DNA of 42,069 bases from an uncultured Faecalicatena sp. (GTDB taxonomy: Bacteria; Bacillota; Clostridia; Lachnospirales; Lachnospiraceae), in the NCBI GenBank assembly GCA_948468385.1, contig CAOKHZ010000033.1, positions 1-42,069 of the forward strand, given 5' to 3'. A program made the position numbers and the translations under genes. The notes under the pieces are model-generated. The model was given only the letters and a program-made list of their open reading frames with translations. It searched no databases and was not told the origin of the DNA. Every line of letters starts with the position of its first letter. Positions within the stretch are counted from its first letter, which is position 1. Below are positions 4,888-20,641 of the stretch, in pieces.

Positions 4888-7337
4888 TGAATAAAGGAGA
4901 TGTGTTAAAACGTCATTTTGTCGAGTTGGAGGGCGAAATTGACGAAAAGAAGGAGCAACCGGCCTCCTATATACGAAAGACATTTGTGATTGGGCGAGGG
5001 ATCAAACATGCCGAGCTTTCAATGACCGCGCTGGGCGTTTATGAAGGATATGTGAATGGCATCCGCTTAGGTGAGCAGGTGCTGACTCCGGGATACACGG
5101 ATTATCATTTCCGCGTGCAATATCAATCCTATGACGTGACGGATAAATTGGTTCAAGGGGAAAATGTGATTGCCGCCCTGGTCGGTGACGGGTGGTATCG
5201 GGGGTGCATCGGCATCGGCAGCAATCGGAACAGTTATGGGAGTAAGACGAAGTTCGCTTGTTGTTTGTTCATTTCTTATGAGGATGGCGGGGAAGAAGTC
5301 ATTTGTACGGATGAAAGCTGGCATGTTTGTCAAGATGGTGCGCTTCGGGAGAACAATATCAAGACAATAGAGCGGTTTGACGCGAGGAAAAAACTGTGTG
5401 GGTGGAATTTGCCCGGATATGTGCTGCCGGATTCACAGAATTCGCAGGTGCAAAGCGCATCGGCCGCGGGAGATTCGGATGTGGGTGACGGCGCAAACTG
5501 GCATCGGGCGCATCCTGCCTCCTATGAGGGCAATGTCGTGCCGCAGGAGGGCGAACTTGTCTTGGAACACGAACATTTCACGCCGACGGTATTGCACACG
5601 CCGGACGGCAACACCGTGTTGGACATGGGACAAAATTTTGCCGGATACGTGCAGCTTAAAGTGGCGGGACCGGCTGGACACGTGGTCGCGCTGACGATGG
5701 GCGAGGTGTTGGACGAGAACGGGAATTTCACGATGAAAAATTTGGCCGCGGAGGGAGCCAGCATCATCAGCGGAGAAGTGGGACAACGATTGGAATATAT
5801 TTTGGCAGGCGAGAGAAGAACGGCAGATGAGAAAAATGCGGCAGATGGGAAAAGCGTGGCAGAGGATGCCGTATCGGCGCAGGAAGCGGTAAGAGAAACG
5901 TACAAGCCGCATTTTCTGGTCAGCGGGTTCCGCTACGTGCTGGTGGAGAACTGGCCGGAGGAGGTAAAGGCGGAGAATTTTACCGGCATCGCGGTGTACT
6001 CGGACATCCCGTTCGTGGGGACGTTTACATGTTCCAATCCACTGGTGAATCAATTGGTGGAGAACGTGCGCTGGAGTCAAAAAGGGAATTTCGTGGACAT
6101 TCCGGCGGACTGCCCGACAAGGGAGCGCAGCGGTTGGACGGCGGACATGGCGGTATTTTGCGAGACGGCATGCTACTTGAGCAATCCGCGCAAATTTTTG
6201 AAAAAGTGGTTGCAGGATTATAAGGCGGAGCAGGGCGAGGACGGGAATCTGCCGTATGTCGTACCGGCCGCCGGAAAGACGATGCGGCAGCGCGGCTGCA
6301 TGGGGTGGTCGACGGCTATCGCCCAGATTTCCCTTATCTTGTATCGGTTTTACGGGGAAAAGGAGGACTTGGAGGACGTTTACAAGTGCGTGAAAAAATT
6401 TGTGGAGTTCAATGTCAAAAGGGCGAAAGAGCGCAACCCATTTTTCTTCTTTAAACGGGGAGCGCATCGGAAGTATATCATAGAGACCGGTTTTCATTAT
6501 GGAGAATGGGTCGAGCCGGGGCGGGCGATGTATCAGGATTTTTTCAAAGACCTGCTTTACCCAGATACCGAGGTGACGACGGCATGGTTTCATGAACTCG
6601 TGATGCAGCTTGTAGAGATGGCGGAAATTCTGGAAAAGATGGAGGACGTACAAGTCTACACAAAGCTGGCGGGACATATTTACGACGCTTATCAGAAAGA
6701 GTTTATCAAAAACGATGAAGTGCATTCGAAACGGATGTGCCGTTATGTGCGGCCGCTCGCGATGCATTTGGTGTCGGAGCCGCAGGCGAAAAGAATAGCG
6801 TGTCAGTTAAATGAAATGTGCGTGAAAAATGAGTACCGCATCGGAACGGGATTTTTGACGACCTGGCAGATTTTGCAGACGCTGACGGAGACTGGATATG
6901 TTGATACGGCGTACCGCATGTTGGAGAACGAGGCACAGCCGGGATGGCTTTTCGCCGTGACTAGGGATGCGACTACCACATGGGAAAACTGGTACGGACT
7001 GACGAAGGAGGGCGTGCCGGTTGACTCGCACAATCATTTCGCGCCAGGGGCGGTCGTGGCGTGGCTGTTTTCCCACTGCGCGGGCATTCGGCCGATGGAG
7101 CCGGGATTTGGGAAAGTGCAAATCAGGCCGGTGCCGGGCGGCACGTTTACCCATGTGGATTGCAGCTACGAGAGCGTCAAGGGACGGATCGTGTCAAATT
7201 GGAAACGAGATGGGGGCACGTTTTGGTTGCATGTGGAAATACCGGCTGGGGTCGCGGCGGAGGTAGTGCTGCCAAACGGGGAGAGGCATGAAGTACATGG
7301 AGGAGCGTATGACTGGCGGTGCGTCATGCCGAAGTAG
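4884..7337 (+). CDS. Alpha-L-rhamnosidase, GH78 family
   Basis: An 817-residue enzyme. Residues about 20-190 form the rhamnosidase N-terminal beta domain (YEGYVNGIRLGEQVLTPGYT); a second beta domain follows to about 390; an (alpha/alpha)6 catalytic domain lies at about 390-740; and a C-terminal beta domain closes the protein. The segment with D409, E414, W418 and D421 (beginning DCPTRERSGW) matches the GH78 active-site segment with the spacing I recall from Bacillus sp. GL1 RhaB, where the Glu is the general acid. The family removes terminal alpha-L-rhamnose by inversion. There is no signal peptide, so it acts inside the cell on imported rhamnosides, in line with the coupled symporter. A charged insertion (about residues 306-332) is unusual. 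Confidence 0.88.
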   Translation: MMNKGDVLKRHFVELEGEIDEKKEQPASYIRKTFVIGRGIKHAELSMTALGVYEGYVNGIRLGEQVLTPGYTDYHFRVQYQSYDVTDKLVQGENVIAALVGDGWYRGCIGIGSNRNSYGSKTKFACCLFISYEDGGEEVICTDESWHVCQDGALRENNIKTIERFDARKKLCGWNLPGYVLPDSQNSQVQSASAAGDSDVGDGANWHRAHPASYEGNVVPQEGELVLEHEHFTPTVLHTPDGNTVLDMGQNFAGYVQLKVAGPAGHVVALTMGEVLDENGNFTMKNLAAEGASIISGEVGQRLEYILAGERRTADEKNAADGKSVAEDAVSAQEAVRETYKPHFLVSGFRYVLVENWPEEVKAENFTGIAVYSDIPFVGTFTCSNPLVNQLVENVRWSQKGNFVDIPADCPTRERSGWTADMAVFCETACYLSNPRKFLKKWLQDYKAEQGEDGNLPYVVPAAGKTMRQRGCMGWSTAIAQISLILYRFYGEKEDLEDVYKCVKKFVEFNVKRAKERNPFFFFKRGAHRKYIIETGFHYGEWVEPGRAMYQDFFKDLLYPDTEVTTAWFHELVMQLVEMAEILEKMEDVQVYTKLAGHIYDAYQKEFIKNDEVHSKRMCRYVRPLAMHLVSEPQAKRIACQLNEMCVKNEYRIGTGFLTTWQILQTLTETGYVDTAYRMLENEAQPGWLFAVTRDATTTWENWYGLTKEGVPVDSHNHFAPGAVVAWLFSHCAGIRPMEPGFGKVQIRPVPGGTFTHVDCSYESVKGRIVSNWKRDGGTFWLHVEIPAGVAAEVVLPNGERHEVHGGAYDWRCVMPK

Positions 7338-7377
7338 ATTGGCATGGGGCAACGCCCATAAATGCGAATTCCATATA

Positions 7378-7423
7378 GATGCAAGCTTTATATAAATGAG
7401 AATGGAGAGGGCGTGCTTGCATC
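7378..7423. repeat. Spaced inverted repeat downstream of the rhamnosidase
   Basis: Arms GATGCAAGC (7378-7386) and GCTTGCATC (7415-7423), perfect over 9 bp and separated by 28 bases. There is no T run, so it is not a clear terminator. It ends 16 bases before the left 99-bp repeat and may mark the edge of the island. Confidence 0.4.
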
Positions 7424-7439
7424 TCGATGAAGCCTAAAA

Positions 7440-7538
7440 AGTATACAAAGTTTACAAAAAAACGCAATCGAGTTTTTGACTCTTGCGTTTTTTTGGTGCC
7501 CTATGCTATGATGTTTTTGTACTGGCAAAAGGGGGAAG
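7440..7538 (+). repeat. 99-bp direct repeat, left copy (hairpin plus promoter)
   Basis: Matches 18331-18429 at 94 of 99 positions in the same orientation, with no gaps. It contains a stem-loop (arms AACGCAA / TTGCGTT with an inner GAGT / ACTC stem, flanked by A and T runs) that reads as a bidirectional intrinsic terminator. A candidate promoter follows: TTGCGT (7483-7488), 18 bp, TATGAT (7507-7512). The left copy ends 20 bases before the Rpn-family start codon. Confidence 0.85.
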
Positions 7539-7558
7539 CACAGGGGAAAGGAAACTCT

Positions 7559-8503
7559 GTGAATACGGAAGTAAAAAATGCAGTAATAGTAACGGATAAA
7601 GAAGCCCAATATGATGAAAATGCAAAGCGTCTGTTGGGGAACAAACATATCCTTGCACATATATTGGCAAGGACGGTGGATGAATTTAAAGGAATGAACC
7701 CAAAGGAAGTCGTCTCGTATATCGAGGGCGAACCGATGATAGGCATCGTTCCAGTAGAACCCGGACTGACGAACGTGGCGAGGGAGGAGCAAGGACAACG
7801 GGTGGTCGGCTTTAATACGGAGAACGTGGAGGCTCATGAGGGGCTGGTGCGGTTTGATATCGTGTTCTACGTGCGTATGAAAGATGGTATTTCGCAAATC
7901 ATAGTAAATCTAGAAGTGCAAAAGGATGTGCCTACAAAGTATAAGATACTTAACCGAGCCGTCTTTTACGTGAGCCGGTTAGTGTCCTCGCAGAAGGAGC
8001 GGGACTTTACAAAGACCAACTACGATGACATAAAGCGTGTATTCAGTATCTGGATATGTATGGGTATGGACGAAAACAGTTTGGACTATGTGCACCTGGC
8101 CAATGACAAGTTGTTGGGCGATTATGAATGGGAGGGCAAGATGGATTTGCTCAACATCGTCTTGATTGGTGTTTCCGATGAGTTGCCAGAGCAGGATGAG
8201 CACTATGAATTGCATCGTTTACTTGGAGCGTTGCTGTCGGCGAAATTGCCTATTGAAGAAAAATTAGACATCCTCGAAACGGAGTATGAGATTCCGATGG
8301 AGGATGAAGAAAAGGAGGAAGTGGGCATTATGAGCAACTTGGGAGAAGGAATTCGGGAAAAGGCAGAAGCTAGAGGAGAAGCGAAAGTTATTTTGGGCAT
8401 GTATCGTAAAGGCTATACTTTGGAGCAGATAGCGGATGTGGCAGAAAAAAGTGTCGAGGAAATTCGGGTCATCGTGGAGAAAAGGGAGCCCGCATTGGTA
8501 TAG
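7559..8503 (+). CDS. Rpn/PD-(D/E)XK nuclease-family protein (transposase-like)
   Basis: About 314 residues. The central part (RFDIVFYVRMKDG, then IIVNLEVQKD) has the Asp and Glu-x-Gln pattern of the Rpn/PDDEXK family, whose Escherichia coli members are recombination-promoting nucleases. The C-terminus (EIREKAEARGEAKVILGMYRKGYTLEQIADVAEKS) is a helix followed by a helix-turn-helix-like segment common in clostridial members. I chose the GTG at 7559 (NTEVKNAVIVTDKEAQYDENAKRL) because AAAGGAAA precedes it and upstream codons in this frame fall in the 99-bp repeat. It is the only gene left of the NRPS block inside the repeats. Such genes are often annotated as transposases, but no terminal inverted repeats are evident. 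Confidence 0.82.
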   Translation: MNTEVKNAVIVTDKEAQYDENAKRLLGNKHILAHILARTVDEFKGMNPKEVVSYIEGEPMIGIVPVEPGLTNVAREEQGQRVVGFNTENVEAHEGLVRFDIVFYVRMKDGISQIIVNLEVQKDVPTKYKILNRAVFYVSRLVSSQKERDFTKTNYDDIKRVFSIWICMGMDENSLDYVHLANDKLLGDYEWEGKMDLLNIVLIGVSDELPEQDEHYELHRLLGALLSAKLPIEEKLDILETEYEIPMEDEEKEEVGIMSNLGEGIREKAEARGEAKVILGMYRKGYTLEQIADVAEKSVEEIRVIVEKREPALV

Positions 8504-8553
8504 CGTGGAAATTCCATGGATATTAATGAACAGTATGTACGGCATAGTATATT

Positions 8554-8576
8554 CAAGAACGCCACCAGCGTTCTTG
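8554..8576. other. Perfect stem-loop after the Rpn-family gene
   Basis: Arms CAAGAACGC and GCGTTCTTG around CACCA, 51 bases past the stop codon. There is no T tract after it, so it is not a standard intrinsic terminator. The 326-bp stretch 8504-8829 has no credible gene and holds only this stem-loop, the palindrome CTGGACGTCCAG (8667-8678) and the two structures listed next. Confidence 0.5.
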
Positions 8577-8692
8577 CGACGGTGCACAAGTCAGCTATGC
8601 TGACAAAATACATCTTTGTGCGCCTGCCTCTTCACTCCGTTACGGTCGGCACTAAACGGATGTCCACTGGACGTCCAGCGCCCGCCGGAGGC

Positions 8693-8776
8693 ATATCAGA
8701 TGGGGGTGACTCCCGCCGCTGATACAAATATGTTGCTCACTGCCTATAGAGGCGGGAGTCATTCCACATCTGATAT
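8693..8776. repeat. Two-tier inverted repeat (84 bases)
   Basis: Outer arms ATATCAGATG (8693-8702) and CATCTGATAT (8767-8776), inner arms GACTCCCGCC (8708-8717) and GGCGGGAGTC (8751-8760), all perfect. Internal loops of 5 and 6 bases separate them, and the apical loop is 33 bases. Either strand would fold into a long stem-loop. It may be a structured RNA or the terminus of a decayed element; no family is recognised. Confidence 0.6.
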
Positions 8777-8793
8777 AAAATGATGCATGACCG

Positions 8794-8829
8794 GGCAGAG
8801 CCCTATTTTGTGTTTGATAGGGCTCTGCC
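8794..8829 (-). terminator. Strong hairpin at the 3' end of the XRE gene
   Basis: Perfect 12-bp arms GGCAGAGCCCTA / TAGGGCTCTGCC with a 12-base loop, directly after the stop codon of the minus-strand XRE gene. The T tract is weak on either strand, so efficiency is uncertain. Confidence 0.55.
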
Positions 8830-9036
8830 TTAGTGTTTGCTTGAGGTTCTGCCAAGCAAATAATCAACCGTGACGTCATAATAATCTGCTAATTTTATAA
8901 ATACTTCGATGGGAATGTTGATTTTGCCCAGCTCGTATTTGGAATAATTTGTTTGTGTGATGTTTAAATAGTCAGCCAATTCTTGTTGTGTTTTGTCGTT
9001 GTCTTCCCGAAGGTTTCTTATATTATGGAATATCAT
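8830..9036 (-). CDS. XRE/Cro-CI family DNA-binding regulator
   Basis: A 68-residue single-domain protein. Residues about 5-62 form one lambda-repressor-like helix-turn-helix fold (TQQELADYLNITQTNYSKYELGKINIPIEVFIKLADYYDVTVDYLLGR). There is no sensor domain, so control would be through its abundance or a partner. It is divergent from the acyl ligase/NRPS operon across a 138-bp gap with a perfect palindrome over the operon's -35 box. It is therefore the best candidate for the local regulator, more likely a repressor given the position of that site. AAAGGA lies upstream of its ATG. Confidence 0.88.
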   Translation of the reverse strand: MIFHNIRNLREDNDKTQQELADYLNITQTNYSKYELGKINIPIEVFIKLADYYDVTVDYLLGRTSSKH

Positions 9037-9064
9037 AGAAAAAATCCTTTCGCAATTTTTCTCA

Positions 9065-9070
9065 ATTATA
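9065..9070 (-). promoter_or_regulatory. Candidate -10 box for the XRE gene
   Basis: TATAAT on the minus strand, 29 bp upstream of the XRE start. No clear -35 box lies at standard spacing; TTGCAA is 20 bp away. Proximity to the operator suggests that the XRE protein also controls itself. Confidence 0.35.
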
Positions 9071-9079
9071 AAAAAGTCT

Positions 9080-9109
9080 TAATACGACTATTGCAAAATA
9101 GTCGTATTA
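9080..9109. promoter_or_regulatory. Palindromic operator, probable XRE binding site
   Basis: Perfect inverted repeat with 13-bp arms TAATACGACTATT and AATAGTCGTATTA around GCAA. It encloses the -35 box of the ligase/NRPS promoter and fills most of the spacer to the -10. A weaker related site, GATAGTC (9123-9129) and GACTGTC (9137-9143), lies just downstream of the -10. Bound protein would occlude RNA polymerase. Assignment to the adjacent XRE protein is inferred from position. Confidence 0.7.
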
Positions 9110-9119
9110 TAACTATAAT
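9091..9119 (+). promoter_or_regulatory. Promoter of the acyl ligase/NRPS/carrier-protein operon
   Basis: TTGCAA (9091-9096), 17 bp, TATAAT (9114-9119). The -35 hexamer sits at the centre of the palindromic operator and is self-complementary. The ligase ATG is 56 bp downstream of the -10. Confidence 0.7.
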
Positions 9120-9174
9120 GGTGATAGTCACGTTACGACTGTCAAGGACACGTAAGACAAACAGGAGGAATGAC

Positions 9175-10797
9175 ATGGAAAAAAAGAAACGATTAACAAA
9201 CTACCCTTTATATGAACACACTCATATAACAAACGTAAAGCAACTCATCGAGGAAAACGCACGTCGCACTCCTGACCACTTGGCGTTCCGATATTTGTTC
9301 CAAAAAGAGGTAAAGAGCGTTACATACAAGCAGTTTTACGAGGATGTTATTGGCCTTGGCCTATTTTTGCGTCGTCAGGGATTTCAAAACAGAAAAATCG
9401 CTTTATTGGGGGAAAATAGCTACGATTGGATTTTGACATATTTTGCGACCGTGCTAAGTTCAAACATTATCGTACCCATAGACAAAGAATTATCAGATGA
9501 TGAGATTGGCAATCTGCTGTCTTTTTGTGATGCCGAAGTTTTGATTCATTCCGAGCTTTTTGCAAATACTGTGCAAAAAATGTTCCGCAAGGGTCAAGTG
9601 CAAAAAGTATTCAGCATGAAAAACTTTCCTACGTTCTTTGAATCTGTAAAAGGGATTGCCCCTGATGAAAAAGCTACTTTTCAGGAGGACATAGCTGTAT
9701 TCCAGAAGGAAGAAGTAGATGAGGACGCGGTATGTTCAATTATATTTACGTCCGGCACGACTGGAAAGCCGAAAGGAGTCATGCTGTCACAAAGGAATTT
9801 GATGGCAGATGCGTTTGCAAGTGCCCGATATGTATATTTGTCTGGTCCTTCACTGCTCACGCTTCCTCTTCATCATACCTTTGCGTTTACTGCCGGGGTT
9901 TTAGGAGTGTCCATTTACGGCCTGCCTATCTGCATCAGCAAAAGCCTACGGACATTTAAATCGGACCTGCAGACATTTAAACCGCAACATATTTTTCTGG
10001 TTCCACTTTATGTGGAAACATTGCATAAAACAATCTGGAACACTGCGAGACAGCAGAAAAGGGGTAAATTATTGAAAGCTTTAATAATGTTTAGCAATCT
10101 GGCGAGAAAGTGTGGATTAGATTTTCGAAAAAAATTATTTCATTCTATTTTGGAGCAGTTCGGCGGAAATCTCGAGTTGCTTGTTTCCGGCGGTGCGCCA
10201 CTTTCATCGCGTTTCGCCAAAGGTCTGGAGGATATTGGAATCCAGGTTTTGAATGGATACGGAATCACAGAATGCGCCCCCGTCGTCGCCGTAAATCGAA
10301 ATCAGTATTGCAGAAATGAGAGCGTCGGACTCCCATTGTCTTGCTGTGATGTCAAAATCGAGGATGGGGAAATCTGGGTAAAGGGAGCAAACGTCATGCT
10401 CGGATACTATCACGATGAAGCCGCGACACGCGAGACACTGGAAGATGGATGGTTTAAAACCGGCGATTTGGGATATCTGGACGAGGATGGTTTCTTATAC
10501 GTTACGGGTCGCAAGAAAAATCTTGTCATTCTTAGCAACGGGGAAAATGTTTCTCCGGAAGAACTGGAAGAAAAGCTTCAGGTCATCGAACATGTACAAG
10601 AAGTTATTGTCTACGAAAAAGACGGCTCCCTGGCGGCTGAAATTTATGCGGAAAACGAGGAAGAGATTCAAAATAAAATTCACGAAAGCATTTTGGAGTT
10701 AAATAGAAAATTGCCCGTTTATAAGCGGATACAAAGAATCTTTTTCCGCGATTCGGAGTTTGAAAAAACGACCACGAAAAAAATAAAACGCCAATGA
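9175..10797 (+). CDS. AMP-dependent acyl ligase (fatty acyl-CoA/ACP ligase type) for NRPS loading
   Basis: A 540-residue ANL-superfamily enzyme that would activate a carboxylic acid as an acyl-adenylate and pass it to CoA or a carrier protein. Motifs: TSGTTGKPKG at residues 192-201; SGGAPLSSRFA; NGYGITECAPVV, as in FadD-type ligases; GWFKTGDLGYLDEDGFLYVTGRKKN, the hinge region; and a C-terminal TTTKKIKR with the conserved catalytic Lys region. The ATG at 9175 follows AGGAGG; a longer frame upstream would run through the promoter. It is the first gene of the operon, and its stop lies just before the NRPS ribosome-binding site. Location and the downstream carrier protein suggest that it supplies the N-acyl group of the lipopeptide. 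Whether it makes acyl-CoA or loads the carrier directly cannot be told. Confidence 0.85.
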   Translation: MEKKKRLTNYPLYEHTHITNVKQLIEENARRTPDHLAFRYLFQKEVKSVTYKQFYEDVIGLGLFLRRQGFQNRKIALLGENSYDWILTYFATVLSSNIIVPIDKELSDDEIGNLLSFCDAEVLIHSELFANTVQKMFRKGQVQKVFSMKNFPTFFESVKGIAPDEKATFQEDIAVFQKEEVDEDAVCSIIFTSGTTGKPKGVMLSQRNLMADAFASARYVYLSGPSLLTLPLHHTFAFTAGVLGVSIYGLPICISKSLRTFKSDLQTFKPQHIFLVPLYVETLHKTIWNTARQQKRGKLLKALIMFSNLARKCGLDFRKKLFHSILEQFGGNLELLVSGGAPLSSRFAKGLEDIGIQVLNGYGITECAPVVAVNRNQYCRNESVGLPLSCCDVKIEDGEIWVKGANVMLGYYHDEAATRETLEDGWFKTGDLGYLDEDGFLYVTGRKKNLVILSNGENVSPEELEEKLQVIEHVQEVIVYEKDGSLAAEIYAENEEEIQNKIHESILELNRKLPVYKRIQRIFFRDSEFEKTTTKKIKRQ

Positions 10798-10814
10798 CAA
10801 AGGAGAAAAGAAGC

Positions 10815-13800
10815 ATGTATGACTTGTCTAAACCACAAAAGTCCATCTACAACATGGAAAAATTTACGGGCGGTACTGTTGCGAATATATGTTGCAGTAT
10901 GCTATGCGTCGGTAAAATGGATATTGACACATTAAAAAATGCGGTCAATGAACTTTATCGTCTTAATGATGCTCTGCGGGTACGGATCATGGAAACTCCG
11001 AGCGGAACAAGGCAATCCATTTCCGATTATAGTGAACATGATTTTGAAATACTGATCTTTCAAAATGATACAGAATTTTCATCGTATGCAGAAGAGTATG
11101 CGAAACAATCGCTCGACCTATATGGTTCTCTTTGTGATATAAAAATTATATTTGTTGAAAATAAGTACGGCCTGCTTGTCAAACTTCACCACATCATTAG
11201 TGATGCATGGACGATGTCGCTATTGGCAAAGCAATTTGCCGCCATACTTAACGGAGAAATGCCTGAAGCATATTCCTATACTGAATATCTCAAATCAGAG
11301 AAAACGTATGTGGCAAGTAAGCATTATCAAAAAGACAAGCAATTTTTCCTCGAACAGTTTCATAAATGTGATGAGATTACCTATTTATCGGACAAGCAAG
11401 ATATGGATTATCATGCCGACAGAAAGACATTTGCACTTACAAAGGGGTTGACCGCACAAATTACGGCGTTGGCCGAGAGAAACCATAGCAGCATGTTTGC
11501 CGTCATGGTGACGCTGTTCGGAATTTATTTCAGCCGCATAAAGATGAATGTGGAAAAATTTTATATTGGCACGCCCGTCTTGAATCGTGCAAGGATAAAA
11601 GAGCAAAATATGATGGGAATGTTTATAAACACGGTTCCGTTGTTCATGGAAATAGATTCCGAAAAAACATTTGGTGAAAATTTGCAGGTTACGACGAATC
11701 ATATCATGTCGCTCTTACGTCATCAGCATTATAACTATGAAGATTTGTTATCTGCGTTGCGCACAGAGAGTAGTTTGCCCACCGAAAAACTGTACGACGT
11801 AATCTTAAGCTATCAAAACGCGAAAACCAGGACAAGAGAGTTCCAAACAAAATGGCATCCTTGTGGCATGCAGATTGAAAATCTGCAGATACATATGGAT
11901 GACCGTGATGACATGGGCATGTTGACAATTAACTATGACTATCGGACAGACAAATTCACGGAAAAAGAGATTGAACGTATGCACGAGCATTTGTCCAATC
12001 TTTTTGCCGATGCTGTAAATAATGAGAACAAAAAAATATATGAGCTTAATATTCTTTCGAGTAAAGAAAAGAGTACTCTGCTTTATGAATTTAATTATAC
12101 AAAAGCTGATTATTTCAGGGAGAAATGTTTGCATCAGCTATTTGAAGAACAAGTGAAAAGAACGCCTAATAAAACGGCGGTTATTGATTGCAATAAAACG
12201 TTAACGTATGATGAATTAAATAGAATGTCTAATCGAATTGCAAACGCTCTTATCGAAAAAGGTATTGTTAAGGGTGACATTATCGCGTTCGCGCTTCCGA
12301 GAAGGAGCTGCTTGATTGCGACTATGTTCGGTATACTTAAAAGTGGGGCCGCATATATGCCGATTGACCCGGATTATCCACAAGATAGAATTGACTATAT
12401 GCTGTCGGACAGTAATGCGAAGCTATTTATAACAAAGAATAATCTTAGTGATTATATATCGGACGATGAGGAAAATCCAAATGTTGAAATAGCTTCGGAA
12501 AGTTATTGCTATTGCATTTACACGTCGGGAAGTACTGGTAAACCGAAGGGAACGATTTTGCAACATAAAGGAATTGTAAATTTGGTGAAAAATCTAACTA
12601 TATATGGTAATGTTTCCAAAATTCAAACAATTGGATTTTTAACGACGATTACTTTTGATGTCGCCACACAAGAAATATTAACCGCGATGTTAAATGGATT
12701 TGTAGGTGTTCTTTTGCCTGAACGCAAAGAAACGGAGATTGAAAAAATTATTGATTATATTGAGAAGTATAATGTTGATATGATTTATTCTACACCGTCC
12801 TATTTTGATGCTTTAACATTTGAATATTATAATGCGGATAGATTATTGAAAAGGCTAAATACGATTGTACTGGCAGGGGAAAAGTTTTATTTGAACGCCA
12901 ATGCTGTTGAATTAGGCGAACGCTATCATGCGATTTTTGAAAATCAGTATGGACCAGCAGAAACACATGTTATTACTACGAACACGATAAGGCAGCTTAA
13001 AAATTCGAGTGGAAGTAATATGCACATAGGAAAACCTATTTCAAATACGCAAATCTACATTGTCGATAAATATAATAATATTCTGCCTATAGGTCACATG
13101 GGCGAATTGTGTATTGCCGGGGATAGCGTAGGTGCGGGGTATTTGAACCGTGTCGAATTAACCGCGGAAAAGTTTATTGATAATCCGTTCGGTGGCGGGA
13201 AGCTGTATAAAACGGGTGATGTCGCGTATTGGCGCAAGGATGGAAATATTGTGTTTGTTGGCAGAAATGATTTTCAGGTTAAAATCCGAGGGCTTCGTAT
13301 TGAACTTGGTGAGATTGAAAATGCCATATGCTCCGTGGATGGAATTTTGCAAGCTGTCGTTGTAGTGCGCAAGGATGAAATCGGCAGACAACTTATGTGT
13401 GCGTTCTATACTGAGAAATCGGTGGTTGGCATTGCAGATATTAAAAAGACAATTCTAAACAGATTGCCCAAGTATATGTTGCCTCATGTTTTTACAAGAC
13501 TTGATGAAATGCCGCTTACGTCAAGCGGTAAAATAAATCGTAAGGCTTTGCCGGAGATTGATTTATGTGATTTTTCCAATGAGGTTGAATATGTAGAACC
13601 AAAAACAGAAGCAGAAAAGCTATTGGTATTTGAAATTGGACAAATTTTGTTTTTAAACAAAATAAGTGTATTGGATAATTTTTTTGATATTGGCGGAGAT
13701 AGTTTGAAAGCTATCGAGCTTCTTTCAAAATTGGAAGCTCACGGATTTTGTACGACTGTCAAAAATATTTTTGACAGCGAAAATATAAAAATGCTTGCCA

Positions 13801-16800
13801 AAAAACTTGAAAAAACAAAAAAAGCAAAGGACATTTTGGATTATGAAGGCGATATTCCTGCAACACTTGCACAAATGCGTATATATACGGCGCAAAGCCT
13901 GAATGTAAATTCTACAACCTACAATGTGCCGTATGTATTCAAAGTAAAAGAATTAAATATTGATAAATTGCAAATGGCCGTTGACAAAATGATGGAACGC
14001 CATGAAATATTACGCACCCATTTTGAGAACAAGGGTGGCCGGATTGTTCAAATAATCAAAGAAAAGGTCGTATGTAAAATAGAATGCCTTCGGAGTGATG
14101 AAATTTCGGCGTTTGTTCGTCCGTTTGATTTGTCAAGCACTCCGCTTATTCGCGTTGGCTATTATAAAAATACAATTATGCTTGATATGCACCATATCAT
14201 AACGGATGGTGGCTCCATGCCGATATTACTGAAGGAGTTGAATGATTTATATATGGGCAGAGAATTAAATTGCGTTCCCGTTCAGTATAAGCAGTTTTCT
14301 ACTGAAAAACAAGATTATACCGATTGTAAAAAATACTGGCTATCTGTTTACAATGATGAATTACCGGAACTTGGAATCAATACCGATTTTCCGAGAGGAC
14401 AAAAGCAATCATTTAACGGAAACGCCATATATGATACGATAGAAATAGTGCTACATGGTAAGATTGTTGATAAATGTAAGAATCTTAAAATCACGCCATT
14501 TGTATTTTATATGAGCGCATTTAACGTTCTGTTGTCAAAATTTAGCGGTGATGAGGATGTTGTTATAGGTGTGCCTGTTAGCGGCCGCAAAAATAAGTAT
14601 TTAAGCACGATTGGAATGTTTGTAAACACAATCGCGCTCCGCAATAAACCGATAGGCAGTAAAAAAGTATCGGAATTTATACAAGAAGTTAAGACGAATT
14701 CCGTAAATGCTATTGTTAATCAGGATTATCCGTTTGGGGAGCTTGTAAGGGAACTCAAAATTGACACTCAAAGCAGAAATCCGTTGTTTGACGTGATGTT
14801 TGCATATCAGAGTGAGGAGATGACAAATGTGATGTTTGGTGATGAACCGGCGGAACTTTTGCCTATTCCCATTACAACGTCAAAATACGATTTTACATTT
14901 AATATAATGCCACGCGAAAATGATATTGTGATTATGGTGGAATATTGCACGGATTTATATTCGGAAAAGACAATAAATCGCTTGATTGACGCATATAAAA
15001 GGATATTGACGGCAATGCTTGATGAGAAACGGTTTATTTATGATATTTCTGCAATATCCAAGGAGGAAGAAAGCAAGATACTTTATGAATTTAATGATGC
15101 AAAAGTGGATTACCCAAGAGATAAGTGTGTACATCAGCTATTTGAGGAGCAAGTGAAGAAAACGCCGGACAAGATGGCGGTTGTCGCTTGCGACAAGACC
15201 TTGACTTATAATGAACTTAATAAGCTATCCAATCGAATCGCAAACGCCCTTATTGAAAAAGGCATCGGTAAGGGTGATATTGTCGCGTTCGCGCTTCCGA
15301 GACGGAGTTATCTGATCGCGGTAATGTTCGGAATACTCAAAAGTGGAGCGGCATATATGCCGGTTGACCCCGACTATCCGAAGAATAGAATTGATTATAT
15401 ATTGTCGGACAGTAATGCAAAAGTATTTATCACGGATGGTAATATATATGGTTATATATCAGATGTTGAGCAAAATCCGAATGTTGAAATGACTTCGGAA
15501 AGCTATTGTTACTGCATTTACACGTCAGGAAGTACCGGAAAACCCAAAGGAACGCTTCTTCATCATAGAGGCATTGTAAATCTTGTGACGAATCTTGATA
15601 TATATAAAGATCTTTTGAAATGCAAGGTATTTGGATTTTTGACAACAATCACCTTTGATGTTGCCACGCAAGAAATTTTGACCGCATTGTTAAACGGATT
15701 TACAGGTTGTCTAATGCCTGAACGCTCAAAATCATCAGTTGAGGAAATTTCTGATGGAATCGTAAAAAACGAGATAGATATCATTTACGCCACGCCATCG
15801 TACTTTGACATGCTGATGTCAACGACTGAAAATGCTAAAAAAATATTAAGCAGATTAAAAGTGATGGTATTGGCAGGTGAAAAATTTTATTTGAATAATA
15901 TAGTCAAGGGATTGAGAAATACATATGAAACTATATTTGAGAATCAATATGGACCTGTCGAACTTCATGTTATTGCGGCCTCGACGACGGTCGAAGGTGA
16001 TGATTTCGCCAGTATCGGTCGCCCCATTGCGAATAACGCTGCTTATATTGTCGATAAATATAGCCATATCCTGCCTATAGGTGTTACTGGCGAATTGTGC
16101 ATTGCTGGTGATGGCGTTGGCGCGGGATACTTAAACCGTCCGGAGCTGACCGCTGAAAAATTTATAGATAATCCCTTTGGGGAGGGTAAAATGTACAAAA
16201 CGGGCGACCTTGCCTACTGGCGCGAGGACGGCAATCTCGTGTTTGTTGGGAGAAATGATTTTCAGGTCAAAATCCGTGGCCTTCGTATTGAGCTTGGTGA
16301 GATTGAAAGTGCGATTTGTTCCGTGGACGGAATTTCGCAAGCCGTTGTCGTAGTACGCAAGGACAAAAGTGGGCGGCAACTTATCTGTGCATTTTATACG
16401 GAAAATTCGAAAGTTGAAATTGCCGACATAAAGAAGGTCGTTTTGAACCGATTGCCCCAATATATGCTTCCGCATATATTTCACCGTATCGATAAAATGC
16501 CGTTAACGCCAAGCGGGAAGATAAATCGCAAGGCGTTGCCGGAGGTTGATTTGGAAAATATTTCAAATGAAACCGAGTACGTCAAGCCTCGAACCGAATT
16601 GCAAAAAGAAATTGCAGGACTTATGGAACAAGTGTTGTACCGCTCGCCAGTCGGGCTGTATGATGATTTCTTCGACTGTGGAGGTGACAGTCTGAAAGCA
16701 ATTGAATTTGTATCAAAGGCGCATACGGATGGGATTTATTTCAATATGCAGGCGGTTTTTGATCATTCCACCGTGCAAGCATTATGTGAATATATTGAAA

Positions 16801-18065
16801 AAGGCGATAAGGCGACGGTTTCCTATAATGACAATGATTTTTGTGACATTCACCAAATCATTTCAAATAATGTGATTTCGAGCACCTATGCGATTTGTAA
16901 GAATGAACTTGGCAACGTTTTTCTTACCGGTGCAACCGGTTATTTGGGAATTCATATTTTGGCTGAATTTCTGGAAAGCGAGAACGGAAAAATTTATTGT
17001 CTGGTGCGTGGCAATGATATGGAGGACAGTAAAGACAGATTGAAGGGATTGTTGAATTTCTATTTTGACGGTAAGTATGTTTCCATGCTTGATACGAGAA
17101 TAATCGTCATAAACGGAGAATTGCTTTCGGACGATTTTGGCCTTGATAAAATTCAATATGACTCGATTGCGGATGATGTTCATACGATTATTCACGCTGC
17201 CGCAAGTGTGAAGCATTATGGTTCATATAAGTATTTTTATGACATTAACGTGGAAGGGACACGACGAGTCATTTATTTCACCAGACAAGCGAATGCAAAC
17301 CTGATACATGTTTCAACCTTGAGCGTGTCAGGCAATAGTCTGGGGGACAATTTCGATACTTACAGAAGTGCGAACGAGAAATTGTTCGGCGAAAACAGTT
17401 TGTTTATAGGTCAGGAACTTGATAACGTATATATACGTAGTAAATTTGAAGCCGAAAAGATGGTCATTGAAGCCATGGCAGGAGGATTACATATAAATAT
17501 TTGTCGAATGGGTAATCTGACCAATCGGTATTCTGACGGTAAATTTCAATATAATTATGAGTCAAATGCTTTTGTACGGCGAGTGAAAGCCTTGTTGGAA
17601 TTAGGTGCATTTCCAGATTATTTATTGCCTCTGTATGCAGAATTTACACCCGTTGACGATGCGGCGAGGGCAGTCATGGTAATTGCAAGGCATTTTAACA
17701 TGAACTATAATGTGTTTCACGTCAACAATCACAAGGTCGTGTATTTTGACAAATTGTTGAAATGTTTTGAAAATATTGGAATTGATATGGAAGTCGTAAG
17801 CGACAAGGACTTTTCAAGGCGTTTGCGAAACATGGCAGAACAATCGGGCAGGGAATACATATTTGAAACATTCATCAATGATATGACGGAAGAGGAACAT
17901 TTAAATTACGATAGCAACATTCGGATTTTAAACGATTTTACAGTGGATTATTTAAAGGCTCTTGGCTTTGAATGGTCAGACATCGGGATGGACTATGTAG
18001 AGAAATACATCAATTATTTTAAGAAAATCGGATACATTTTCTCAAATGGTAACAAACAAATTTAA
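10815..18065 (+). CDS. Nonribosomal peptide synthetase, C-A-T-C-A-T-reductase
   Basis: 2416 residues, two modules. Condensation domain 1 spans about 1-430, with HHIISDA at 125-131. Adenylation domain 1 spans about 439-910, with YTSGSTGKPKG at 569-579 and the A10 Lys at 906. Carrier 1 has GGDSLKA with Ser963. Condensation domain 2 has HHIITDG from 1126. Adenylation domain 2 spans about 1439-1906, with YTSGSTGKPKG from 1569 and Lys1902. Carrier 2 has Ser1959. A terminal NAD(P)H-dependent thioester reductase follows from about 2030, with GATGYLG at 2039-2045 and Tyr2206/Lys2210 as YxxxK. There is no thioesterase or epimerase. The first condensation domain would accept an acyl donor, and the reductase would release an aldehyde or alcohol. 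I chose the ATG at 10815 because AAAGGAG precedes it; an ATG at 10794 overlaps the ligase stop. The gene is AT-rich compared with its flanks. Gut clostridia are known to encode similar synthetases that make N-acyl dipeptide aldehydes. Confidence 0.92.
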   Translation: MYDLSKPQKSIYNMEKFTGGTVANICCSMLCVGKMDIDTLKNAVNELYRLNDALRVRIMETPSGTRQSISDYSEHDFEILIFQNDTEFSSYAEEYAKQSLDLYGSLCDIKIIFVENKYGLLVKLHHIISDAWTMSLLAKQFAAILNGEMPEAYSYTEYLKSEKTYVASKHYQKDKQFFLEQFHKCDEITYLSDKQDMDYHADRKTFALTKGLTAQITALAERNHSSMFAVMVTLFGIYFSRIKMNVEKFYIGTPVLNRARIKEQNMMGMFINTVPLFMEIDSEKTFGENLQVTTNHIMSLLRHQHYNYEDLLSALRTESSLPTEKLYDVILSYQNAKTRTREFQTKWHPCGMQIENLQIHMDDRDDMGMLTINYDYRTDKFTEKEIERMHEHLSNLFADAVNNENKKIYELNILSSKEKSTLLYEFNYTKADYFREKCLHQLFEEQVKRTPNKTAVIDCNKTLTYDELNRMSNRIANALIEKGIVKGDIIAFALPRRSCLIATMFGILKSGAAYMPIDPDYPQDRIDYMLSDSNAKLFITKNNLSDYISDDEENPNVEIASESYCYCIYTSGSTGKPKGTILQHKGIVNLVKNLTIYGNVSKIQTIGFLTTITFDVATQEILTAMLNGFVGVLLPERKETEIEKIIDYIEKYNVDMIYSTPSYFDALTFEYYNADRLLKRLNTIVLAGEKFYLNANAVELGERYHAIFENQYGPAETHVITTNTIRQLKNSSGSNMHIGKPISNTQIYIVDKYNNILPIGHMGELCIAGDSVGAGYLNRVELTAEKFIDNPFGGGKLYKTGDVAYWRKDGNIVFVGRNDFQVKIRGLRIELGEIENAICSVDGILQAVVVVRKDEIGRQLMCAFYTEKSVVGIADIKKTILNRLPKYMLPHVFTRLDEMPLTSSGKINRKALPEIDLCDFSNEVEYVEPKTEAEKLLVFEIGQILFLNKISVLDNFFDIGGDSLKAIELLSKLEAHGFCTTVKNIFDSENIKMLAKKLEKTKKAKDILDYEGDIPATLAQMRIYTAQSLNVNSTTYNVPYVFKVKELNIDKLQMAVDKMMERHEILRTHFENKGGRIVQIIKEKVVCKIECLRSDEISAFVRPFDLSSTPLIRVGYYKNTIMLDMHHIITDGGSMPILLKELNDLYMGRELNCVPVQYKQFSTEKQDYTDCKKYWLSVYNDELPELGINTDFPRGQKQSFNGNAIYDTIEIVLHGKIVDKCKNLKITPFVFYMSAFNVLLSKFSGDEDVVIGVPVSGRKNKYLSTIGMFVNTIALRNKPIGSKKVSEFIQEVKTNSVNAIVNQDYPFGELVRELKIDTQSRNPLFDVMFAYQSEEMTNVMFGDEPAELLPIPITTSKYDFTFNIMPRENDIVIMVEYCTDLYSEKTINRLIDAYKRILTAMLDEKRFIYDISAISKEEESKILYEFNDAKVDYPRDKCVHQLFEEQVKKTPDKMAVVACDKTLTYNELNKLSNRIANALIEKGIGKGDIVAFALPRRSYLIAVMFGILKSGAAYMPVDPDYPKNRIDYILSDSNAKVFITDGNIYGYISDVEQNPNVEMTSESYCYCIYTSGSTGKPKGTLLHHRGIVNLVTNLDIYKDLLKCKVFGFLTTITFDVATQEILTALLNGFTGCLMPERSKSSVEEISDGIVKNEIDIIYATPSYFDMLMSTTENAKKILSRLKVMVLAGEKFYLNNIVKGLRNTYETIFENQYGPVELHVIAASTTVEGDDFASIGRPIANNAAYIVDKYSHILPIGVTGELCIAGDGVGAGYLNRPELTAEKFIDNPFGEGKMYKTGDLAYWREDGNLVFVGRNDFQVKIRGLRIELGEIESAICSVDGISQAVVVVRKDKSGRQLICAFYTENSKVEIADIKKVVLNRLPQYMLPHIFHRIDKMPLTPSGKINRKALPEVDLENISNETEYVKPRTELQKEIAGLMEQVLYRSPVGLYDDFFDCGGDSLKAIEFVSKAHTDGIYFNMQAVFDHSTVQALCEYIEKGDKATVSYNDNDFCDIHQIISNNVISSTYAICKNELGNVFLTGATGYLGIHILAEFLESENGKIYCLVRGNDMEDSKDRLKGLLNFYFDGKYVSMLDTRIIVINGELLSDDFGLDKIQYDSIADDVHTIIHAAASVKHYGSYKYFYDINVEGTRRVIYFTRQANANLIHVSTLSVSGNSLGDNFDTYRSANEKLFGENSLFIGQELDNVYIRSKFEAEKMVIEAMAGGLHINICRMGNLTNRYSDGKFQYNYESNAFVRRVKALLELGAFPDYLLPLYAEFTPVDDAARAVMVIARHFNMNYNVFHVNNHKVVYFDKLLKCFENIGIDMEVVSDKDFSRRLRNMAEQSGREYIFETFINDMTEEEHLNYDSNIRILNDFTVDYLKALGFEWSDIGMDYVEKYINYFKKIGYIFSNGNKQI

Positions 18066-18080
18066 TATGGAGGTAAAATT

Positions 18081-18317
18081 ATGTTAAACACAATTCAATC
18101 TATTTTATCAAGGTACACGACAATGGGCAAAGATGAAATCAGAGAATCTTCGGTACTGACAGCAGACTTGGGATTATCCTCGTTTGACATTGTGTCCATT
18201 ATATCGGATTTTGAAGACGAATTTGATGTGGAGATACCGGATGAAGATATCCGTAAATTTGTCACGGTCAATGACATTATAGAGTATGTGCAAGGCCGTG
18301 GTTATCAACAGAAATAG
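18081..18317 (+). CDS. Free-standing acyl/peptidyl carrier protein
   Basis: A 78-residue carrier protein. DLGLSSFDIVSIISDFEDEFDVEIPDED matches the acyl-carrier-protein helix II region; Ser34, before Phe-Asp, is the expected phosphopantetheine attachment site. It follows the NRPS by 15 bases with its own GGAGG site and so is co-transcribed. A separate carrier beside an acyl ligase suggests that it carries the fatty acyl starter to the first condensation domain; fatty acid synthesis is less likely since no fab genes are near. No phosphopantetheinyl transferase is in the window. Confidence 0.88.
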   Translation: MLNTIQSILSRYTTMGKDEIRESSVLTADLGLSSFDIVSIISDFEDEFDVEIPDEDIRKFVTVNDIIEYVQGRGYQQK

Positions 18318-18330
18318 AAGTACGGCTGGA

Positions 18331-18429
18331 AGTATACAAAGTTCACAAAAAAACGCAATTGAGTTTTTGACTCTTGCGTTTTTTTGGTACCCTATGATAT
18401 GATGTTTTTGTACTGGCAAAAGGGGTAAG
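18331..18429 (+). repeat. 99-bp direct repeat, right copy
   Basis: 94 of 99 positions match 7440-7538, same orientation, 10,891 bp away. Unlike the left copy it has no Rpn gene after it. Its hairpin (about 18347-18385, ending in a run of seven T) lies 29 bases after the carrier-protein stop and probably terminates the NRPS operon. The promoter-like part (TTGCGT, 18 bp, TATGAT) is retained and points to glnA. Confidence 0.85.
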
Positions 18430-18615: not shown

Positions 18616-18650
18616 ATTGATATAGGAAACCTTTTAAGGAGGCGTGGTTG

Positions 18651-19985
18651 ATGCATCATTATACAAGAAAAGAGATTTTGGAAATGGTGGAAGAGGAGGA
18701 CGTGGGATTTATCCGGCTACAGTTTACGGACATTTTCGGCACGATGAAAAATATGGCCATCACGGTCAGCCAGCTTAGGCGGGCGCTGGACAATGAGTGT
18801 ATGTTCAACGCGGCGGCAATTGACGGATTTGCCGACTGCGGGGAGGAGACGGATTTTTATCTATATCCCGACCTCGACACGTTTGAAATCTTTCCATGGA
18901 GGCCGCAGCAGGGGAAGGTGGCACGCTTGATTTGCGACGTGTACCGGCCGGACGGCACGCCATTGCCTTGCGACCCGCGTCAGGTTTTAAAGAAAGTAAT
19001 TTGCGAGGCGGAAAAGATGGGATATACGTTGAACGTCGGGCCGGAGTGTGAGTTTTTCTTGTTTCATTTGGACGACGACGGCCTGCCGACCACGGTTACC
19101 CATGAGCAGGGCGGTTATTTTGACGTGGCACCGTTGGATTTCGGGGAGAATGCAAGGCGCGATATCGTGTTGACGCTGGAGGACATGGGATTTGAAATCG
19201 AGGGCTCCCACCATGAGATTGCGCCCGCGCAGCACGAGATTGATTTCCGTTTCGGGGAGGCCTTGCAGACGGCGGACAATATCATGACGCTTAAAATGGT
19301 CGTCAAGACGATTGCCAAACGTCATGGCCTGCATGCAACGTTCATGCCAAAGCCAAAGGCAGACTGCCACGGTTCGGGGATGCACGTAAACCTTTCCTTG
19401 TGGAAGGACGGGAAAAACGGATTTCAGGACGACGCGGATGAAAACGGGCTCAGCCAGGAGGCATATTATTTTTTGGGCGGGGTGCTTAAGCACATGAAGG
19501 CCATCACGTGTATTGCCAATCCGACCGTCAATTCTTATAAGCGGTTCGTGCCCGGGTATGAGGCACCGACGTACATCACATGGTCGAGAAAGGCGAAAAG
19601 TCCGTTGGTACGCGTTCCGGCCAGAAAGGGAGAGCGCACGAGGCTGGAACTTCGAAGCCCCGATTCGTCGGCCAACCCGTATTTGACGCTGGCGGTTCTG
19701 CTGGCGGCGGGATTGGAGGGAATTAATGACAAGATCAAACCGCCAAAAAGCGTGGACGAGGATGTGCAGAGGATGCCAGAGGAGGAAATTGCAGAAAGGG
19801 GCATCGAGGCATTGCCGAAAAATTTGAAAGAGGCGGTTTGCGAGATGGAGCAAGACGACCTGGTGAAAAACGTGCTTGGTGAGAAATTGTCGGCCAAACT
19901 GATAGTGGCATATCGGAAGGCGTATAAGGATTATAGCACGCAGGTGACGGACTGGGAGTTGTCCAACTATCTGTATAGGTTGTAG
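18651..19985 (+). CDS. glnA: Glutamine synthetase type I
   Basis: 444 residues, about the normal length for the Firmicute GSI-alpha class, which lacks the adenylylation loop. The enzyme makes glutamine from glutamate, ammonia and ATP in the cytoplasm. Landmarks: the N-terminal beta-grasp LQFTDIFGTMKNM; the metal-binding NVGPECEFFLF; the EGSHHEIAPAQHEIDFR glutamate and ATP site; the ammonia-site region FMPKPKADCHGSGMHVNLSLW; NSYKRFVPGYEAPTYI; and RLELRSPDSSANPYL. The ATG at 18651 is favoured over TTG at 18648 because of better spacing from AAGGAGG. It has a consensus promoter and structured leader, and is followed by an ANTAR-protein gene, an arrangement I associate with Lachnospiraceae. Confidence 0.96.
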   Translation: MHHYTRKEILEMVEEEDVGFIRLQFTDIFGTMKNMAITVSQLRRALDNECMFNAAAIDGFADCGEETDFYLYPDLDTFEIFPWRPQQGKVARLICDVYRPDGTPLPCDPRQVLKKVICEAEKMGYTLNVGPECEFFLFHLDDDGLPTTVTHEQGGYFDVAPLDFGENARRDIVLTLEDMGFEIEGSHHEIAPAQHEIDFRFGEALQTADNIMTLKMVVKTIAKRHGLHATFMPKPKADCHGSGMHVNLSLWKDGKNGFQDDADENGLSQEAYYFLGGVLKHMKAITCIANPTVNSYKRFVPGYEAPTYITWSRKAKSPLVRVPARKGERTRLELRSPDSSANPYLTLAVLLAAGLEGINDKIKPPKSVDEDVQRMPEEEIAERGIEALPKNLKEAVCEMEQDDLVKNVLGEKLSAKLIVAYRKAYKDYSTQVTDWELSNYLYRL

Positions 19986-20013
19986 GAGGAGGACAGGTTA
20001 CTGTTTGAACCCG

Positions 20014-20037
20014 AGCCAGTCACTACGCTGACTGGCT
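20014..20037 (+). other. Stem-loop between glnA and the ANTAR-protein gene
   Basis: Perfect 9-bp arms AGCCAGTCA and TGACTGGCT with a six-base loop CTACGC. There is no T tract. It could tune transcript processing between glnA and the regulator. Its loop does not show the A-x-x-G pattern known for ANTAR target hairpins. Confidence 0.5.
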
Positions 20038-20092
20038 TGGAGGATGCACTGGGACGGCGGACACGGACAAAATGATGGGAGGTGGTGCGGGC

Positions 20093-20641
20093 GTGAATGA
20101 CATTGTCGTTGTGTTTCCGCAGAAGGAAGTCGCGACCAAGATTCGGAATATCTTAGTGCGCGGCGGCATTGACGTGTACGGTGTCTGTACCACGGGTGCA
20201 CAAGCGTTGCAGGCGGTGGACAGTCTGGACGAGGGCATCATCATCTGCGGGTACCGTATGCGGGACATGGTTTATACGCAGTTACGGGACAGCATGCCGG
20301 AGACGTTTGAACTGCTTTTGATTGCCTCGTCGGACAAATGGAGCCAGGAACTGGCCGAGGGCGTGGTCGGATTGAGCCAGCCGTTCAAGGTCCATGACTT
20401 GATTAATAGCGTGGAAATGATGTTGCAAGCGCAGCAGCGGCGGCGCAAGAAACGACGTGAAGAAGCGAAAAAACGAGATCCCGCCCAGCGTGCCGTCATT
20501 GAAAAGGCGAAGCATTTATTGATGGAACGAAATAATTTGACGGAAGAGGAAGCGCACCGCTATTTGCAGAAAAACAGCATGGACAGCGGGACGAACATGC
20601 TGGAAACGGCGCAGATGGTATTGACGATTATGGGAGAATGA
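20093..20641 (+). CDS. ANTAR-domain regulator with degenerate receiver
   Basis: 182 residues. Residues about 1-115 have a receiver-like fold, but at the place of the phosphoacceptor Asp the sequence reads IIICGYRMRD, the N-terminal acidic pair is absent (VVVFPQKEVATK), and the usual Lys before Pro-Phe is Gln (LSQPF). Phosphorylation is therefore unlikely. Residues about 125-182 are an ANTAR domain (QRAVIEKAKHLLMERNNLTEEEAHRYLQ). ANTAR proteins bind RNA hairpins and prevent termination. Position after glnA suggests that it controls nitrogen-assimilation transcripts, perhaps the glnA leader. I chose the GTG at 20093, preceded by GGGAGG; an ATG at 20072 in frame is an alternative. Confidence 0.85.
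   Translation: MNDIVVVFPQKEVATKIRNILVRGGIDVYGVCTTGAQALQAVDSLDEGIIICGYRMRDMVYTQLRDSMPETFELLLIASSDKWSQELAEGVVGLSQPFKVHDLINSVEMMLQAQQRRRKKRREEAKKRDPAQRAVIEKAKHLLMERNNLTEEEAHRYLQKNSMDSGTNMLETAQMVLTIMGE

Follow-up and report, generated by a model that had tools for sequence, protein, structure and literature searches.

What does the two-module nonribosomal peptide synthetase (NRPS) of an uncultured Faecalicatena sp. make, given that both of its adenylation (A) domains carry the same ten-letter specificity code? The gene lies in contig CAOKHZ010000033.1 of assembly GCA_948468385.1, whose 42,069 nucleotides are the whole stretch analysed and are called the window below. The best prediction for its product is an N-acyl-Pro-Pro aldehyde, made by an assembly line of three genes, and the prospects of this being right are put slightly above even. 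The enzyme type is already known; the product is a prediction.

The pocket motifs had been placed in an earlier sequence-only reading of this DNA, which gave DVQYVAQVIK for both A domains, and motif search and alignment bear out the placement and the code. FDVATQE begins at residues 621 and 1621, IYSTP at 664, IYATP at 1664, VLAGE at 692 and 1692, and ENQYGP at 716 and 1716; when aligned, all ten positions read DVQYVAQVIK in the first (A1) and in the second (A2) domain. The register was checked against GrsB1 (8p5o, titled 'Proline activating adenylation domain'), for which the printed pocket alignment shows D-V-Q-S-I-A-H-V at positions 1–8. The proline-type pattern of DVQ with Ala at 301 and Val at 330 is present in both domains and is common to GrsB1 and TycB1, from which the window pockets differ in having Gln for His 322, Tyr for Ser 278 and Val for Ile 299. 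His at 322 is the commonest proline form, though not a defining one, and is Gln in both domains.

The same reading named proline codes as the nearest kin of this code, as they prove to be in a published table. Table 7 of PMC9113097 supplied 20 distinct pairs of code and label for the comparison, taken from 29 of its 30 rows (the remaining row has a 13-letter code). The codes in that table derive from NRPSpredictor2, and its residues are those of known products for the named lipopeptides, with bracketed entries being predictions. All five nearest codes are labelled Pro: DVQFVAQVVK (a bracketed entry) and DVQYVAHVVK (friulimicin PstD among others) at distance 2, and a further three at distance 3. 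The nearest non-Pro code among the 20 pairs, a Trp code, is at distance 5. When 245 code rows were ranked by distance, all codes among the first 25 that lie closer than 5 start with DVQ. The strings DVQYVAQVIK and DVQYVAQ found no mention in the open-licence papers searched.

Pocket regions of 111 residues (A1 12639-12971, A2 15639-15971) were searched against all PDB chains. For A1, the top two of six matches are GrsB1 (5.2e-9) and TycB1 (1.7e-7), which we take to be a proline-activating domain; the third is at 0.012. The top three of 11 matches for A2 are PltF, named as an L-proline ligase, GrsB1 and TycB1. A relative in Lachnospiraceae bacterium MC2017 (L035) has the same code in its A1 pocket, and there GrsB1 and TycB1 are again the top two, the third of its 11 matches following closely. 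As negative controls we took two sister pockets whose codes differ: 5u89 was best for the A2 pocket of L035 (35 matches) and the A1 pocket of another relative, L037 (29 matches), with GrsB1 at ranks 10 and 14. These results indicate that, as far as sequence can tell, the pockets of both domains are of proline type. Trees of the pockets group them likewise, with moderate support. A FastTree built from 207 pockets, none with a gap in its code and five taken from PDB fragments, has a clade of 16 comprising all 14 DVQ tips, GrsB1 and TycB1 (support 0.915), and a careful IQ-TREE search on 99 of the 207 gives the same clade at 88/90. The product proposed in the sequence-only reading, an N-acyl-prolyl-prolinal, is thus upheld in part, its proline half being favoured by codes, PDB pocket matches, controls and trees.

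A number of results weigh against this assignment. A whole-domain fold search is without discrimination, with proline and phenylalanine structures tied. Masking the code columns lowers the FastTree support for the DVQ/GrsB1/TycB1 clade to 0.79, and masking one column on each side as well loses the clade, the three DVQYVAQVIK pockets then joining a DITQTGVVWK pocket. A quick IQ-TREE search on masked data missed the clade; a tree constrained to contain it is 18 log units better (approximately unbiased test p 0.81), which is no proof of the clade. Reverse queries were run against 232 pockets, which remained of 241 of the 335 A-domain rows once identical ones were removed (window copies, codes with more than one gap and pockets under 90 residues had been left out; relatives throughout come from the best 80 of 545 scan matches). 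With the GrsB1 pocket as query, ranks 1–12 are proline-type codes (11 DVQ and one DMQLVAHVV) with none below 52 bits; the window pockets follow at ranks 14 and 15 with 44–45 bits, a level that the background also reaches (its top is at 46.7 bits). The pocket ranked next to them presumably has a serine-like code. With TycB1 as query they rank 19 and 23. Both trees place PltF outside the clade of 16 although it activates proline, and a query with its pocket shows no preference for proline-type codes (A2 ranks 7, A1 170), so that its first place for the A2 pocket counts for little. Relative to canonical proline-type pockets, then, the window pockets appear as a divergent branch. More generally, codes read without assay can mislead, and pipecolate is named as hard for specificity prediction (PMC13126170).

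The divergence leaves some room for non-cyclic residues, and so for an N-acyl dipeptide aldehyde of the ordinary kind described from gut bacteria, N-octanoyl-Met-Phe-H and the acyl-Leu-Glu aldehyde ruminopeptin (PMC8518294). The distance of every non-Pro table code, the uniform DVQ start of all closer codes, the PDB pocket matches and the trees argue to the contrary, and this outcome is considered unlikely.

Similarly unlikely is that one or both modules take another cyclic imino acid (pipecolate, methylproline or azetidine carboxylate), to give an analogue of the acyl-Pro-Pro aldehyde. Malacidin carries methylproline. The code DVQYVGHAIK stands under Pro for a malacidin module, the window code differs at at least two of ten positions from every Pro-labelled code of that table (PMC9113097), and predictors have difficulty with pipecolate (PMC13126170). 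Plain proline, by contrast, is always at hand, and Pfam or NCBIfam scans of neighbouring genes, covering part of the open reading frames of the window, recognised none for imino acid synthesis or modification. The doubt that the sequence-only reading had itself raised over Gln for His is weakened, since Gln at the His position occurs in Pro-labelled codes (DVQFVAQVVK and telomycin DVQFVSQVMK) and so does not count against proline; it is not removed, pipecolate and methylprolines being possible. Pro-labelled codes also depart from the pattern elsewhere, with Ser at 301 in DVQFVSQVMK, and Gly at 301 and Ala at 330 in DVQYVGHAIK (PMC9113097).

The prediction of an N-acyl-Pro-Pro aldehyde also draws on the rest of the gene set. 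The 7.3 kb NRPS gene specifies two condensation (C), two A and two carrier (T) domains and a terminal NAD-binding reductase (R), in the order C-A-T-C-A-T-R within a single protein and with the active motifs of the C, carrier and reductase domains intact (the YIRSK motif of the reductase, at residue 2213, is slightly downstream of the Pfam start). An acyl ligase gene adjoins it upstream and a gene for a free-standing acyl carrier protein (ACP) downstream, and an acyl-activating ligase and carrier protein accompany the NRPS in the relatives L035 and L117 as well. The acyl starter of the sequence-only reading is strengthened by this adjoining ACP, of which that reading made no mention. The best PDB matches of the ligase are acyl- and aryl-CoA ligases (fatty-acyl, feruloyl and succinylbenzoate). 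We infer how the acyl group is loaded in trans, the order of the chain, its release as an aldehyde and the inhibition of proteases, as follows. The ligase would activate a carboxylic acid and load it onto the free ACP, the first condensation domain (C1) would couple the acyl group to proline on module 1, module 2 would add a second proline, and the terminal reductase with NAD(P)H would release N-acyl-L-prolyl-L-prolinal. The carrier sites could be loaded, since the genome contains a single PF01648 match (phosphopantetheinyl transferase family), which lies in a 230-residue frame on another contig. One result tells against the scheme: C1 did not show itself to be of lipo-starter type, its best PDB match being a TycC condensation domain (2jgp, 1.5e-30), far ahead of the CDA starter C domain 4jn3 (1.9e-4). 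No natural N-acyl-Pro-Pro aldehyde was found reported in the open-licence papers searched. The one paper found there that mentions both prolinal and nonribosomal synthesis concerns, by its abstract, synthetic bisebromoamide analogues.

The best PDB match of the reductase domain is 6vtj, followed by the AusA reductase 4f6c. The AusA reductase is aldehyde-forming and MxaA, also among the 10 R-domain matches, releases alcohol or amine; the domain scores 139.6 bits against the former and 88.8 against the latter. R domains are described as yielding aldehydes through two-electron reduction, and although further reduction to the alcohol is possible (PMC7586950), it is improbable on these scores that Pro-Pro is right and the chain leaves as an alcohol or is otherwise trapped, the active aldehyde never accumulating.

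Features of the ligase–NRPS–ACP cluster in the window (residue numbers are those of the NRPS)
Feature	Coordinates	Strand	Length, motif or code	Basis
AMP-forming acyl ligase	9175..10797	+	540 residues from likely ATG; open reading frame listed from 8983	PF00501 (E 2.5e-67), PF23562
NRPS, C-A-T-C-A-T-R	10794..18065	+	2423 residues	Pfam domains
Condensation domain 1, predicted acyl acceptor	10809..12083	+	HHIISD (HHxxxD at residue 132)	PF00668
Adenylation domain 1 (A1)	12126..13560	+	DVQYVAQVIK at residues 622, 623, 626, 665, 692, 694, 718, 726, 727, 913	
Carrier domain 1, attachment motif	13683..13703	+	FDIGGDS	Motif; PF00550 in two protein stretches
Condensation domain 2	13845..15080	+	HHIITD	PF00668 and motif
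Adenylation domain 2 (A2)	15126..16554	+	DVQYVAQVIK at residues 1622, 1623, 1626, 1665, 1692, 1694, 1718, 1726, 1727, 1909	
Carrier domain 2, attachment motif	16671..16691	+	FDCGGDS	Motif
Terminal thioester reductase domain (NAD_binding_4)	16923..17672	+	TGATGYLG	PF07993 (E 5.1e-45)
Free-standing ACP	18081..18317	+	78 residues	PF00550, 37.0 bits (cut-off 20.8)

C-A-T-C-A-T-R is the domain order of the gut dipeptide aldehyde synthetase family, and the window system is a variant of these synthetases whose predicted residue pair is unusual. The NRPSs of gut bacteria are known to make acylated dipeptide aldehydes that inhibit proteases, among them N-octanoyl-Met-Phe-H (BGC0001686) and ruminopeptin (rup); the sources are a Clostridium cluster expressed in E. 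coli and Ruminococcus (PMC8518294, PMC12327764). Compared by their descriptions, those enzymes use Met-Phe and Leu-Glu, whereas both window pockets are proline-type. AusA (NF047350) resembles the window NRPS in having two modules and an end reductase, and the match is 1844.2 bits with its best stretch at residues 507-2411, which is under the family cut-off of 2500 bits. AusA itself is A-T-C-A-T-R, with no acyl start and other residues. In the tilivalline system the carrier protein is ThdA. That system (NpsA/ThdA/NpsB) also has a separate activating enzyme and carrier protein, a proline module and, drawn as a pathway step for NpsB, reductive release to an open N-acylprolinal; it differs in using one proline, a hydroxyanthranilate starter with its own pathway genes, and ring closure (PMC5698749). 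An NpsA-like starter, with a pyrrolobenzodiazepine-type product, was set aside as unlikely: NpsA is not among the best 60 PDB matches listed for the ligase, which is no proof, and the neighbours scanned, part of the open reading frames of the window, included none recognised as belonging to an anthranilate pathway.

Proline-specific peptidases act on neuropeptides and proline-rich food peptides, and the predicted product would bind the prolyl-specific serine peptidases as a transition-state aldehyde. N-acyl-prolyl-prolinals are classic synthetic inhibitors, and Z-Pro-prolinal is called the first effective prolyl oligopeptidase inhibitor discovered (PMC3223163). Tentatively, and at somewhat short of an even chance, the window product may be a natural counterpart of Z-Pro-prolinal that blocks such peptidases of neighbours or host, pocket swaps having retargeted a cathepsin-type scaffold to another protease class. 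A protease target outside the cell's own genome would fit, since that genome (94% complete) has no match to PF02897, the prolyl oligopeptidase N-terminal domain; prolyl oligopeptidase as a self-target is rejected for the same reason. The broad family PF00326 is matched at 11 places. Were the prediction true, the gut dipeptide aldehydes, known as inhibitors of cathepsins and the proteasome (PMC8518294), would come to include some that inhibit proline-specific peptidases. The predicted gene set is directly testable: the compound class is easy to make, enzyme assays exist and the DNA is about 9 kb.

How did both modules come by the same code? A1 and A2 are paralogues, 73% identical overall, with 79% identity in the N- and C-terminal parts, 59% in the pocket and 55% in the 22 residues before it. 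Being paralogous, they do not provide two independent draws of the code. The sequence-only reading had given the same code for both; the identity stands, its independence does not, as it is partly an effect of internal duplication, and the double occurrence should rather be taken as a single event passed on twice. With the A1 pocket of L035, A1 shares 52% identity and A2 43%; four comparisons with differently coded pockets lie at 21–24%. The IQ-TREE of 99 tips unites the three DVQYVAQVIK pockets in a clade (100/100), within which the A1–A2 pair has 87/15. The simplest reading of these identities is that an ancestor had a proline-type pocket in module 1, probably copied to module 2 in this lineage with homogenisation of the flanks. 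One of seven two-code relatives (L035, L037, L038, L039, L043, L117 and L129, read in a single frame, the second code of L039 lacking its last position and the first of L117 its ninth) has the same code in both modules: L037, from a goat-cecum Clostridia metagenome-assembled genome, whose two-module reductase NRPS (6651-13976) has DITQIGIVWK twice. Paired identical codes thus recur in the family.

The MC2017 relative L035 shares the ligase–NRPS–ACP order, with an NRPS 52% identical and the same module-1 code, and differs in module 2, which has DIQVMGGCGK; its ligase and ACP, at the same places, are 56% and 49% identical to those of the window. L117 has the same gene order and likewise an NRPS 52% identical to that of the window. 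Ranked by A domain, the top 11 relatives that bear a name, among the best 80, are 48–60% identical. Ten are labelled Clostridia or families within it and one Bacillota alone, and four are titled goat or water-deer cecum; from these relatives we infer a gut habitat for the host, and its membership of Lachnospiraceae. At order level the pocket query matched one of 392 genomes at 1e-12 (that of the window alone), and at family level three of 397 at 1e-10, the others being G054, with the proline-type code DVQFVAHVVK, and G127, with DILQMGMIWK. The reductase query has matches in 55 of the 397 family genomes; reductase-ended proteins are therefore common and this pocket rare.

Nine of 12 genomes of the genus match C1 at E 0.001. 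Among the 12, with the regions of G401, G406 and G404 read, there was no other comparable match to C1 and the 2433-residue frame; G404 has a 2252-residue A-C-A-T-R protein with other codes, and the matches outside these three regions were weak. The G+C content of the six 1.5 kb segments from 9001 to 18000 is 36–42%, against 46–55% in 18 of the 22 others. The low G+C content of the cluster, together with the lack of a comparable match in the genus, suggests that the cluster was gained laterally. The best C1 match outside the window's own genome is a lone C domain in G401 (L127 5644-6918; a 425-residue open frame, 45% identical); the 18 kb read there showed no further NRPS domain.

A repeat of 100 nucleotides, in which inspection by eye shows a hairpin and then a run of T, occurs at 7439-7538, at 18330-18429 and at G000:C10:33266-33366 in the same genome, the latter two copies being 95% and 90% identical to the first. 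The copy upstream of the cluster is at the start of a PDDEXK-like open reading frame (23.0 bits, below the cut-off of 27.4); the others are just downstream of the ACP gene and, on contig C10, close to the ACP side of a second cluster with a reductase NRPS. The repeat could mark a mobile or duplicated unit. This second set (L115, G000:C10:28000-44000, at 5422-11390 on the − strand) comprises an acyl ligase, C-A, T-R and ACP, with the code DAIQIAGVG-. Its NRPS spans two overlapping frames (828 and 584 residues), which may reflect a gene that is truly split, a frameshift or an error of assembly. The genome has a third reductase NRPS (L116, G000:C13:38000-54000, at 4991-9319 on the − strand), a one-module C-A-T-R protein of 1443 residues with the code DMTEIGNVWK, a code found also in G406 of the same genus (L128), where the gene is in pieces over several frames.

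Divergent from the cluster and just before it, a helix-turn-helix protein of 68 residues (HTH_3; 8830-9036, − strand) could be the cluster regulator. Beyond the ACP gene, a type I glutamine synthetase (TIGR00653) and then a 189-residue ANTAR-domain protein occupy 18648-20641 and are probably unrelated to the cluster.

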